From assembly GCA_021371995.1 (NCBI GenBank), contig JAJFVA010000019.1:1-57697 (forward strand): a stretch of 57,697 bases of DNA, written 5' to 3'. Source of the DNA: Methanoregulaceae archaeon. GTDB taxonomy: Archaea > Halobacteriota > Methanomicrobia > Methanomicrobiales > Methanospirillaceae. Positions 19,167 to 57,697 of the stretch are shown here, piece by piece; the first letter of the stretch is position 1, and each line of letters opens with the position of its first letter. The translations under genes and the position numbers were made by a program. Below the pieces are notes generated by a model. The model was not told the DNA's origin. It was given only the letters and a program-made list of their open reading frames with translations, and ran no database searches.

Positions 19167-19718
19167 ATGAGTACCTTCTTCCGGTTAATACCCCCCTACC
19201 TGATGAAATCCGGTATCTTTGTCCTGGTTCTTGTGGTATTACTTCTCTGTGCAGGGTGTGTCGGACCGTTTGAATCAGGCAGCTCTAATGAGACACCAAG
19301 TGAACCGGCCTCGATAGAACCCACCCCCCGCATGACGGTATCCCCTGAAGAGACTGCTGTTCAGCCATTACGGAACATGCCGGCAGAATTGCCCGCATCC
19401 GGTTATATCGAACGGTCTTACGGGTACGTCCCCTATTCCCCACCCCCCGAGTATCGTCTCACAATGATCGATTCGAACTCGCGGCGCGATGCATCCGGAA
19501 ACGTCATCATCTATGGCAGAGTGAAAAATGAAGGGCCGGGATCCCTATCATACCTGCAAATGACATTTAACCTGTTCGATTCCAGCGGCAACCTTGTCGG
19601 AAACGCACACGCACACGTGGAATATTTCGCTTCCGGAAAAATTTGGCGGTTTGAATCAGACCCTGCTCCCGGGGCAAACTACCAGTATTTCGAGATCGCC
19701 GGTATCGTTGCACAATAA
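19167..19718 (+). CDS. Predicted lipoprotein with FxLYD-like domain
   Basis: Secreted, lipid-anchored protein of 183 residues. The signal segment SGIFVLVLVVLLLCAGC ends in a lipobox with C31 as the acylated residue. A Ser/Thr/Pro-rich spacer follows to about residue 85. The globular end (about 95-183) contains SGNVIIYGRVKNEGPGSLSYLQMTFNLFDSSGN, which is the FxLYD-type beta-sandwich pattern of cell-surface proteins. I chose ATG 19167 with AGGGG upstream. ATG 19203 would also keep the signal, and a TTG at 19110 extends the frame without gain. Function unknown. Confidence 0.72.
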   Translation: MSTFFRLIPPYLMKSGIFVLVLVVLLLCAGCVGPFESGSSNETPSEPASIEPTPRMTVSPEETAVQPLRNMPAELPASGYIERSYGYVPYSPPPEYRLTMIDSNSRRDASGNVIIYGRVKNEGPGSLSYLQMTFNLFDSSGNLVGNAHAHVEYFASGKIWRFESDPAPGANYQYFEIAGIVAQ

Positions 19719-19868
19719 AAGAACTTCACCTTTTTAAAAATAAATCAGAAAACAGGCGTTTCACCGCTCAAAAGGAAAAAAATACGGCTGCCCCCAAAGC
19801 CAGGTCCTGGTATTTTATTGAGAGGGCTTCATTGTTCGTCGTGCCCGCCCGATTTTACAATCTTTCTG

Positions 19869-20807
19869 TCAGACCATGATATTCGTTTCGGAGAAAGGTT
19901 TCACCCGGATTAAGATATAATCCCGCATTCTTGAGGGCAGGACATCGGCAACCTCCCCGATGGTGACACCCTCTTCGATGGTGATTCCTTTCAGGACAGG
20001 GGCGAATGTATCATAAGGGAGCTTGACCCGGATCCCGGTCATCTGAACCGTGACAGGAGTTGGCGAGAGAACTTCGTGGATCTCTTCGACCTGGCTTTCG
20101 ATAATATCCATCAGCCTTGCCGGTGATACTGATGGGGGGTCCTTCGCAGTCTCGTCTCTCTTTTTGTCAAGGACCCGCGTGATCTCGGTAACGACCTGAT
20201 CGAGCATCTCAAGCTCATCGGATTCTTTTGTCCGGTGCATGAACCTTCCGACGTTACCTACGTATCCATCGACCGGCGGATCGATTATCTTTTTTAACGT
20301 TTCGGTGGAAGGTCCACCCAATACCACGATTGGAACATGGATGCCCCGCCTGAGAACCGGGAACTTGTGCTCGATGCAGGTCTCGAAATCCCCGAGGAGG
20401 TAGACAGCAAGATCGTGTTCATTGATGACATCCCTTTCCTCATCGTTCAGTTGGGCAATCCTTTTTCCAAAACCCCGTGCAAGCCCGACCATGTTGGTCT
20501 TTGCCCCAAATCGCCGGATATATTCAGCGACATCACAGGAAGCATGGGGAAGGTGGTGAATCTCAAGGCTCATCGTCACAACAGCAATCTCAGTTCCGAC
20601 GAGGGGCGAGGGGGTGATCTCACCAGTCAGTGGCTTACCAATCCGTGCGATGAGTTCAATATCTTCCCGCGGAACGAGTGCCTGGAGGACTACTTCCTGG
20701 GCAAGGACATGTTTCTGGATAATATATCCTCCCAGGTCCTCGATAAGATCCACTATCTCATCATGGCGGTAAATTCCCCCTTTGTAGGTTACCGGCACAA
20801 GGTTCAC
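19869..20807 (-). CDS. mmp7: Methanogenesis marker protein 7
   Basis: Protein of 312 residues found only in methanogens and close relatives. It is one of the proteins that co-purify with the ATP-dependent activation complex (component A3a) of methyl-coenzyme M reductase. Recognised from the conserved text VPVTYKGGIYRHDEIVDLIEDLGGYI at the start, VVLGGPSTETLKKIIDPPVDGYVGNVGR in the middle, and the end RDYILIRVKPFSETNIMV. Its biochemical step is not known. It is the last gene of the seven-gene minus-strand operon, overlapping mmp17 by 4 bp (ATGA), so it is translationally coupled. Confidence 0.92.
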   Translation of the reverse strand: MNLVPVTYKGGIYRHDEIVDLIEDLGGYIIQKHVLAQEVVLQALVPREDIELIARIGKPLTGEITPSPLVGTEIAVVTMSLEIHHLPHASCDVAEYIRRFGAKTNMVGLARGFGKRIAQLNDEERDVINEHDLAVYLLGDFETCIEHKFPVLRRGIHVPIVVLGGPSTETLKKIIDPPVDGYVGNVGRFMHRTKESDELEMLDQVVTEITRVLDKKRDETAKDPPSVSPARLMDIIESQVEEIHEVLSPTPVTVQMTGIRVKLPYDTFAPVLKGITIEEGVTIGEVADVLPSRMRDYILIRVKPFSETNIMV

Positions 20808-55341: not shown

Positions 55342-55746
55342 CTACAGGCCGCATTCATGGATCAGTTCGAGTGAGGTCCGGGCGGTCTTCCTCACCCGGG
55401 AATCAGGATCTTCAACCGCTTGTTTGAGGAGATCTTCTGCTTCCTTGCATCTCATAATCCCAAGCGCCCGGGCACACGCATTTCGTGTGCAGTCATCCCC
55501 TGTGGTGAGTCCTTGCTTGAGGGGATCTGAGAGGTCCGGATTATTGATCGAGCGGATCCCTGCAGCCACCATCTCCCTGATGTACCATTTTTCTTCAGGG
55601 AGCCGGTGGATCAGGTCGGCAAGAACCGAGGGATCTTTGAGGCGGCCGATCCTGCCCACCGCCTCCTGGCGGATGATCCAGTCCTCGCATTTCAGGTCCC
55701 GGAAGATGAGGGTGACCTCATCCAGCTCCACTCTCTTTTTCCTCAC
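55342..55746 (-). CDS. Short HEAT-repeat protein
   Basis: Soluble protein of 134 residues with three to four HEAT/PBS-lyase-type repeats (DWIIRQEAVGRIGRLKDPSVL, KWYIREMVAAGIRSINNPDL, TRNACARALGIMRCKEAE). Likely a protein-binding scaffold. The start is GTG at 55746 with a full GGAGGTGG ribosome binding site eight bases upstream. A TATA-like AAATATTTATC near 55783-55793 is the probable promoter. Its repeats resemble those at 44887 and 47753, but the gene is separate from that cluster. Confidence 0.78.
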   Translation of the reverse strand: MRKKRVELDEVTLIFRDLKCEDWIIRQEAVGRIGRLKDPSVLADLIHRLPEEKWYIREMVAAGIRSINNPDLSDPLKQGLTTGDDCTRNACARALGIMRCKEAEDLLKQAVEDPDSRVRKTARTSLELIHECGL

Positions 55747-55887: not shown

Positions 55888-55963
55888 TTCTATAAACTCG
55901 CAGATCACACTTTTTTTACTTGAAGCCGGACGTCCAGGAACGGGGCAGAATGGAGTTGATGTA
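55888..55963 (+). promoter_or_regulatory. Promoter and leader of eIF1A, with mini-frame
   Basis: TATA-like TTCTATAAACTC at about 55888-55899 places the transcript start near 55918-55925. Within the leader an ATG at 55950 opens a five-codon frame (MELMY) ending in TGA at 55965-55967, which overlaps the start region of the eIF1A frame. GGAG at 55952-55955 stands eight bases before a CTG. Confidence 0.4.
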
Positions 55964-56272
55964 CTGACTGATAAAAAGCCGGGCCAGGGTATCCCTGAGG
56001 AGATAGTCAGGGTCCGCATTCCGAACAAGAGGAACCGCGAGATCTTTGCATGCGCCGAACTGATGATGGGCGCAAACCATATCCGGGTGAGGTGCTTTGA
56101 CGGGGTCACCCGGATGGGCAGGATCAAGGGAAAGATCAAGAAGAAGGTCTGGATTCGCGAAGGAGACATTCTCATCGTGGTTCCCTGGAGTTTTCAGGAC
56201 GACAAGTGCGACATCATCTACCGGTACACCGGTCCCCAGGTCGAATGGCTGAGACGGAACGGGTACCTGTAA
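55964..56272 (+). CDS. Translation initiation factor eIF1A, start codon unclear
   Basis: Cytosolic factor of the OB-fold (IF1-like) class that helps scan and place initiator tRNA. The conserved body is unambiguous: EEIVRVRIPNKRNREIFACAELM, then MMGANHIRVRCFDGVTRMGRIKGKIKKKVWIREGD, and CDIIYRYTGPQVEWLRRNGYL at the end. The usual N-terminus (TDKKPGQGIPEE) is in frame from 55967, but no ATG, GTG or TTG lies in this frame downstream of the promoter and upstream of the fold. The first ATG (56063) would delete about a third of the fold. I place the start at CTG 55964, eight bases after GGAG. A one-base sequence error in the mini-frame MELMY is the alternative. Confidence 0.8.
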   Translation: MTDKKPGQGIPEEIVRVRIPNKRNREIFACAELMMGANHIRVRCFDGVTRMGRIKGKIKKKVWIREGDILIVVPWSFQDDKCDIIYRYTGPQVEWLRRNGYL

Positions 56273-56428: not shown

Positions 56429-56542
56429 TTACATGAAGAAGATCATTCCAAAATAGGAAACAAACCCCAGAATCCCTAGTAAAAGTATCAACATAACAAG
56501 GCTGTACGTTGGATTCTTCCTTTTTTGGGCGTAGACAACCAT
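56429..56542 (-). CDS. Microprotein A: 37-residue single-pass membrane protein
   Basis: Frame of 37 codons with ATG at 56542 and a GGGGGAG ribosome binding site about four bases upstream. A basic N-terminus (VVYAQKRKN) is followed by one long hydrophobic segment to the last residue (LVMLILLLGILGFVSYFG), ending FGMIFFM. The positive charges ahead of the segment predict the N-terminus inside. Too short for ordinary gene calling, but the binding site, promoter with palindrome and terminator all agree. Resembles microproteins B and C in length, layout and the terminal GM[IL] motif. Function unknown. Confidence 0.72.
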   Translation of the reverse strand: MVVYAQKRKNPTYSLVMLILLLGILGFVSYFGMIFFM

Positions 56543-56611
56543 AGCTCCCCCTTCTCCGGGGTCAGCTCCGACCGTCCCGTCGCCCGTGGTCGTTAATCTG
56601 ACCGGTTAATT

Positions 56612-56628
56612 TTCATCAGTTTGATGAA
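56612..56628 (-). promoter_or_regulatory. Operator palindrome A
   Basis: TTCATCAGTTTGATGAA, a perfect 7-base inverted repeat with a 3-base centre, located about 70-86 bp upstream of microprotein A. A TATA-like AAAATTTTATTT lies about 25-35 bp further upstream on the minus strand (about 56655-56666), so the palindrome covers the predicted transcript start. Same sequence plan as operators B and C. Confidence 0.65.
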
Positions 56629-56851
56629 CAAATACTACCATGTCCGCTGAAGAAATAAAATTTTCTCTCCCGACGTTCATTTGGCACTCAGGCATCCCGA
56701 AAATCGGACATATCCAGGGCACTTATAAGTTCGAGAATTATTGATCTTAGGGTGGACGATGAAACAATGCAAAGATCAGATAATTGGATCAACAAATCGA
56801 ATGAACAGAAAATGAGGCTGGAATATTTTTAATCAGGGTAGTTACAGCCAC

Positions 56852-56888
56852 CAGAGGGGAGAATTGGGGGGTAATGTGCTCCCCTCTG
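56852..56888 (-). terminator. Terminator-like hairpin after microprotein B
   Basis: Perfect 10-bp inverted repeat CAGAGGGGAG (56852-56861) and CTCCCCTCTG (56879-56888) with a 17-base loop, about 28 bp after the microprotein B stop on the minus strand. A T-rich stretch (ATTAAAAATATT on that strand, about 56825-56836) comes afterward. A transcription end is likely; a regulatory stem is possible. Confidence 0.55.
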
Positions 56889-56916
56889 CTGGGGTGGCGC
56901 TTGTGGTGTTACAGGA

Positions 56917-57018
56917 TCAGGCCAGTGATATCATTCCAAGGCCGGTAATTCCCAGGAGAATTATGAGCAGTATCGAGAATATACCGAACAGGTAATTGAT
57001 CTCAGTTGATTTCGCCAT
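56917..57018 (-). CDS. Microprotein B: 33-residue single-pass membrane protein
   Basis: Frame of 33 codons with ATG at 57018 and a strong AGGAGGGAGAG just upstream. A short polar head (MAKSTEIN) precedes one hydrophobic segment (YLFGIFSILLIILLGITG), ending GLGMISLA. It shares with microprotein C the pattern of a polar head, FG[IM]F within the first turn of the segment, and the terminal GM[IL]SL. Own palindrome upstream and hairpin downstream, so it is a separate transcript. Function unknown. Confidence 0.75.
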   Translation of the reverse strand: MAKSTEINYLFGIFSILLIILLGITGLGMISLA

Positions 57019-57071
57019 CTCTCCCTCCTGAATTCATCTCTACTTGTTCACCTGCATTTTGTGTTTTACTA

Positions 57072-57088
57072 TTCATCATAATGATGAA
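57072..57088 (-). promoter_or_regulatory. Operator palindrome B
   Basis: TTCATCATAATGATGAA, extended by one pair on each side to ATTCATCAT-A-ATGATGAAT, perfect. It lies 54-70 bp upstream of microprotein B. On the minus strand TTTTTTATATTAAAT at about 57106-57120 is the TATA box, 25 bp away, so the palindrome again overlaps the predicted transcript start. Confidence 0.7.
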
Positions 57089-57404
57089 TATATGGTATGA
57101 TGATTATTTAATATAAAAAATTATCTATTATTTTACGCAAAAAATTGGAATATTAGAGTTGAATTATGGTTTGATCCGTGTTTGGTGGCGAAATAATTGT
57201 AATAAAAAAAATCTCTACATATAAATCTACTTAATTTTTTACTTGATAAATATTGAGGTAGCTGGCGTCCCGGGTTAAGGAAAAAGAGAAATTGCGATAT
57301 GATAGGTTCCGGGTACTGTATAGGGTGAGACAATTCCCTCTGGAAACATTGGCTGTACCGCAGAAGGTAATAGAGTCCAGGAACTCTCATGTATTGAACA
57401 ACCG

Positions 57405-57445
57405 GGAAAAATGATCTGGCTACAGGTCAGGGGGCATAAACCCCG
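57405..57445 (-). terminator. Terminator-like element after microprotein C
   Basis: On the minus strand a small stem GGGG-TTTATG-CCCC (57431-57444) is followed about 20 bases later by a run of five T (57406-57410). It lies about 50 bp after the microprotein C stop. Weak but in the expected place. Confidence 0.4.
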
Positions 57446-57490
57446 TCCATATAGCCTCCTTTCTATATTACTATGCCTGAAATTGTTCCT

Positions 57491-57598
57491 TCACGTCAGG
57501 GAGAGCATTCCCCATGCCGCTACAATGAACAAAACAATGAACATGATTGCGAACATACCAAATACAAATCTTGAGTTGCTTCCATAGGTGGTGGCCAT
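57491..57598 (-). CDS. Microprotein C: 35-residue single-pass membrane protein
   Basis: Frame of 35 codons with ATG at 57598 and AAGGAGAGAAAC upstream. A polar head (MATTYGSNSR) leads into one hydrophobic segment (FVFGMFAIMFIVLFIVAAWG), ending AWGMLSLT. Close in plan to microprotein B (FGxF near the segment start and GM[IL]SL at the end). Its palindrome and nearby promoter text also match those of microprotein A. Function unknown; a small subunit or regulator of a membrane complex is one guess. Confidence 0.75.
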   Translation of the reverse strand: MATTYGSNSRFVFGMFAIMFIVLFIVAAWGMLSLT

Positions 57599-57645
57599 CT
57601 GTTTCTCTCCTTCATTAACCGGGTAATTAATCGCACCGATTAACT

Positions 57646-57662
57646 TTCATCATTGAGATGAA
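57646..57662 (-). promoter_or_regulatory. Operator palindrome C
   Basis: TTCATCATTGAGATGAA, with 6-base arms and a 5-base centre, 48-64 bp upstream of microprotein C. On the minus strand AAATTTATATCC near 57683-57694 is a TATA box about 27 bp away. The flanking sequence on the gene side (ACCG-x-TTAA-x-TTTCATCA on the plus strand) also matches that of operator A, for about 40 bp. Confidence 0.65.
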
Positions 57663-57697
57663 CTATGATCGTGAGAAGCGATGGGATATAAATTTTA

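Follow-up and report, generated by a model that had tools for sequence, protein, structure and literature searches.

The 57,697-nt stretch of DNA analysed here (the window) carries three short genes, A, B and C, which are genuine constrained genes of a single paralogous family and share one dyad operator upstream. Strong, albeit indirect, evidence points to a FilR1_middle-type regulator, encoded on contig C1 of the same genome, as the protein that would bind this operator. Our preferred reading, to which we give a probability of about 0.55, is that A, B and C are single-helix accessory microproteins under FilR1-type control, forming a genus-specific paralogous family that tunes a membrane complex. 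The features are collected in Table 1.

Table 1. Features of the microprotein region (window coordinates unless a locus is named).
Feature	Sequence	Position	Strand	Remark
Microprotein A, 37 aa	MVVYAQKRKNPTYSLVMLILLLGILGFVSYFGMIFFM	56429..56542	-	E 1.3e-3 with the profile of non-window homologues
Microprotein B, 33 aa	MAKSTEINYLFGIFSILLIILLGITGLGMISLA	56917..57018	-	E 2.3e-11 with the same profile
Microprotein C, 35 aa	MATTYGSNSRFVFGMFAIMFIVLFIVAAWGMLSLT	57491..57598	-	E 1.7e-6 with the same profile
Positional counterparts of A		L015 9505-9612; L016 8802-8912; L018 3917-4027		
Second aIF1A (PF01176) paralogue		55952..56272	+	convergent neighbour of the microproteins, kept in five species
Operator 1 of A	TTCATCAAACTGATGAA	56612..56628	-	one of 11 perfect TTMATC-N5-GATKAA sites of the genome
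Operator 2 of A	TTAACCGGTCAGATTAA	56593..56609	-	one mismatch; 19-bp period to operator 1
Operator of B	TTCATCATTATGATGAA	57072..57088	-	conserved in G006 and G001; decayed in G010
Operator 1 of C	TTCATCTCAATGATGAA	57646..57662	-	
Operator 2 of C	TTAATCGGTGCGATTAA	57627..57643	-	19-bp period to operator 1
TATA-like element of A	TTTTATT	56654..56660	-	25 bp before operator 1; from sequence and alignment
TATA-like element of B	TTTTTTATA	57112..57120	-	23 bp before the operator; B promoters of four species and the G010 relic aligned
TATA-like element of C	TTTATAT	57686..57692	-	23 bp before operator 1
Strong hairpin just downstream of B, possible terminator		56820..56919	-	-26.9 kcal/mol, z -2.83

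An earlier note had described three small minus-strand ORFs, each with a purine-rich ribosome binding site, a single hydrophobic segment and a C-terminal G-M-[IL], and had read them as one family. All these elements are present as claimed, as is the FG[IM]F common to B and C. When the six frames of the window were filtered for ORFs of 25–60 aa with a strongly hydrophobic stretch and GM 2–6 residues from the end, only A, B and C passed. AlphaFold2 models microprotein B as one helix (residues 3–32, pLDDT 86.6). The window spans one whole contig of the genome (G000; 1.85 Mb in 43 contigs) and ends just past the TATA box of C; since the contig stops at 57697, more copies may lie beyond C.

A profile was built from seven homologues of other species only, the window proteins being left out, and used to rank the window's 1594 reading segments. 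B, C and A came out on top, A being the most divergent member, and the next segment had an E-value of 0.99. With C alone as query against 101 genomes, similar small frames were found in four genomes of the same genus: two each in G006, G001 and G003, and one, at a contig end, in G007. All of them adjoin the same convergent second aIF1A paralogue. Orthologues of B have a pN of 0.18–0.40 against a pS of 0.58–0.87 per site, and their second codon positions changed least. Thus the frame is kept in four other species and the substitutions show codon bias, two points on which the earlier note had made its family depend. The leave-out profile, the synteny and the codon-level constraint together establish that A, B and C are constrained proteins of one family. 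Its members follow one plan: a short polar N-terminus leads into one helix, and a conserved G-M-[ILV], as a rule preceded by an aromatic residue, lies close to the C-terminal edge of the membrane.

All members stay below the Pfam and NCBIfam cut-offs, and only insignificant matches came out of Pfam, NCBIfam and PDB, whether the query was a single member or the alignment. A match of one member to PIG-Y (E 0.009) was taken as hydrophobic noise. MetS/MaAIMP_sms (PF16951, NF033494) resemble A–C in their similar size class and their one membrane helix, but were matched by one of ten members only, with E-values of 0.49 and 0.14 (10.6 bits against a cut-off of 26.2, and 12 bits against a cut-off of 70). 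A neighbouring NSS transporter was looked for in the relatives, and no transporter lies directly adjacent to the microproteins there. On both counts, the insignificant matches and the missing transporter neighbour, A–C differ from MetS/MaAIMP_sms. The short list of methanogen small proteins gains a microprotein family that neither Pfam nor NCBIfam contains.

The search for conserved neighbours proposed by the earlier note led to the second aIF1A paralogue, and the neighbours beyond it differ between species. The genus has two aIF1A paralogues per genome, in G000 the one in the window and another at C34:53118-53435; between species that have this locus the extra aIF1A shares 87–98% identity, and it shares about 75% with the other copy. 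The gene of a 134-aa HEAT-repeat protein (window 55342-55746) stays beside the extra aIF1A in several species.

The profile search of Methanomicrobiales, also foreseen by the earlier note, did find homologues, but in one genus and not order-wide: among the 232 genomes of the order searched, the family is present in 5 of the 12 genomes of one Methanoregulaceae genus and has no match in the other 227. No further homologues were found in 80 aIF1A loci, nor any match in phage records. In G008, G010 and G011 the aIF1A paralogue is kept and no microproteins lie beside it; G010 retains a decayed relic of the B promoter (L119:743-830) with no matching ORF behind it, which likely marks a loss. Given these three genomes and this relic, microprotein presence changes within the genus by patchy gain and loss, and species that have microproteins can be compared with natural counterparts that lack them.

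The earlier note had seen a palindrome before each ORF. These palindromes are real and form one motif, TT[AC]ATC-N5-GAT[GT]AA, present in tandem before A and C. The longer form TTCATCA-N3-TGATGAA has just two perfect copies genome-wide, one ahead of A and one ahead of B; the copy ahead of C has one mismatch. Counts and background were taken from a pattern search of the whole genome. Perfect matches to TTMATC-N5-GATKAA number 11 in 1.85 Mb, and this 1.1 kb holds four of them (binomial P ~1e-11, a value that overstates independence because the clustered sites are partly related by descent). In the matching promoters of G006 and G001, and in that of an unrelated gene for a 417-aa protein on contig C14, nothing but the tandem is strongly conserved.

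A TATA-like box does accompany each ORF: in the three window promoters and in their G006 and G001 counterparts the operator starts 23–25 bp after it. From the TATA position, the operator would overlap the expected archaeal start site, and an operator placed there is typical of repression. The possession by each ORF of its own TATA-plus-operator promoter also supports the view, already held in the earlier note, that A, B and C are probably separate small transcription units. Upstream of the B TATA box another palindrome, TTTTGCG[CT]AAAA (about 57131-57142), is common to the B promoters of several species and is possibly a second control site.

The identity of the regulator is suggested by the distribution of the operator. 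In 108 Methanoregulaceae genomes a scan for tandem operators returned 36 distinct sites, and the reversed control pattern none. For twelve of the 36, a FilR1_middle (PF08350) gene is no more than 2.5 kb away, where chance would give about 0.05 such cases; the relatedness of the genomes makes the nominal P too small, but several genera are represented among the sites. Perfect single sites number 4 in 94 kb of PF08350 loci versus 0 in 747 kb of aIF1A loci of the order. In G011, G004 and G010 the tandem operator stands before the regulator gene itself. Many genera have operators next to PF08350 genes, as autoregulation predicts. The FilR1_middle-type regulator of G000 is the strong candidate for binding the operator. 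This protein (contig C1, minus strand, about 19,250-20,059) has 269 aa, with an N-terminal winged-helix/HTH-like region and a FilR1_middle domain (E 8e-28); no receiver domain match was found in it. It is the one intact FilR1_middle regulator of its genome. A second FilR1_middle gene (C1:21408-21791, L084) runs in the opposite direction and is interrupted by an in-frame TAG stop codon.

FilR1 of Methanosaeta (Methanothrix) harundinacea, described as the response regulator of the kinase FilI, targets methanogenesis genes and binds its own promoter in vivo (PMC3991700); text searches of this paper met no operator sequence. The tandem operators before the regulator gene in three sister species recall this autoregulation (PMC3991700). 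Unlike FilR1 and its methanogenesis targets, the densest cluster of sites here serves unannotated microproteins.

The operator could instead be read by some other transcription factor that controls FilR1 genes, whence the association; we consider this rather unlikely. It would fit with G000, where the nearest site, with one mismatch, lies between the intact regulator and a UbiA gene and no good operator occurs in the regulator's own promoter. It would also fit with the microprotein-bearing genomes G003 and G007 (79% and 82% complete), in which no FilR1_middle gene was found; G000, G001 and G006, which also bear microproteins, have one. The recurrence of operators beside PF08350 genes in many genera argues against it, as does the binding of FilR1 to its own promoter reported in PMC3991700. 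The tie of the palindromes to FilR1-type regulators was not foreseen by the earlier note, whose interpretation is borne out in part: the paralogous family is supported, and its proposal of regulators or small subunits of membrane complexes is plausible. The operator gives FilR1-type regulators, for which no DNA site was found described in the literature searched, a concrete sequence for binding tests, and it offers a handle on their targets across Methanoregulaceae.

We propose that the regulator, bound to the operator at the start site, would prevent transcription until a signal arrives; upon its release from DNA the microproteins would be made. They would then insert in the membrane, probably N-in, given that their N-terminus is the more charged and that, by the positive-inside rule, it should stay inside. 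The helix and the G-M motif might dock on a larger membrane protein or complex and tune it, in the way of other single-helix accessory proteins; binding to a partner complex is suggested, weakly, by this analogy. Two small proteins of Methanosarcina mazei offer comparisons. MtrI (68 aa), which binds the Mtr complex, is likewise a lineage-restricted small methanogen protein with a stand-alone gene outside its partner's operon (PMC12774963); compared by description, it differs in being nearly twice as long, helical, bridging MtrA and MtrCDE and restricted to Methanosarcinales. sP36 (61 aa), which inhibits AmtB1, is also a small archaeal protein acting at the membrane, on a transporter (PMC10714827), but it shuttles between cytoplasm and membrane, whereas A–C look permanently membrane-inserted. 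A bolder version, which we hold to be improbable, would make of this locus a dedicated and as yet undescribed signalling module of one methanogen genus: the FilR1-type regulator would sense a signal and release the paralogous microproteins as variant subunits re-tuning one membrane complex, e.g. Mtr or a hydrogenase. The number and identity of the microproteins would then set energy conservation or cell form.

With similarly low likelihood, A, B and C could be membrane-active peptides, either toxic (type I toxin-like) or signalling (peptide-pheromone-like), silenced by a repressor. They are indeed very small and hydrophobic tandem paralogues, patchily present and lost in the genus and under tight operator control. 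The charged C-terminal tail usual in type I toxins is nevertheless missing, and the conserved G-M-[IL] together with purifying selection suggests that they fit a specific site and do not simply insert in any membrane. Neither an antisense RNA nor an antitoxin was seen, the only Rfam match in the window being one tRNA, a search that would miss undescribed archaeal antisense RNAs.

Somewhat less probable still is a role as minor structural parts of the envelope, the sheath or pili, under common control with surface proteins. An operator does lie about 87 bp before the gene of a NosD-like secreted protein in G000, others precede genes of signal-peptide proteins in other genera, and in G006 and G001 the microprotein genes adjoin pilin-like DUF7289/DUF7266 genes. 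Against this, G003 has no pilin neighbourhood, a DUF7289 query from G006 found no such protein in G000, and neither a signal peptide nor a pilin cleavage motif is evident in the microproteins.

A role of the palindromes as RNA hairpins of the 5' leader, in place of one as operators, is very unlikely. At the 5' end of the transcript each of them is able to form a stem of about 6–9 bp. However, the half-sites vary independently, 13 of 40 distinct sites being unable to pair as RNA at the variable position, and on this ground a DNA-bound dimer is favoured. The 19-bp tandem period points the same way, sequence and not pairing is what is conserved, and the leaders of B and C fold no better than shuffles. 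As for spurious ORFs, their short length speaks in favour, but we regard this explanation as refuted by the constraint on codons, the synteny and the fact that an independent profile recovers all three.

The terminator-like hairpin that the earlier note had attributed to each ORF is clear for B and modest for C (z -1.6); A has none and shows a T9 run in its place.

Beyond the microproteins, the tandem operator is found upstream of a 378–417 aa protein without Pfam match in G000 (L038:6705-7958, contig C14) and G002 (L068). As the tandem is upstream in both genomes, membership of this protein in the same regulon is probably conserved. Microproteins downstream of operators were sought outside the genus and not found. 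One genome of another genus, G105, has eight tandem-operator matches per strand, up to three in a row and many more than the rest, which suggests a much larger regulon.
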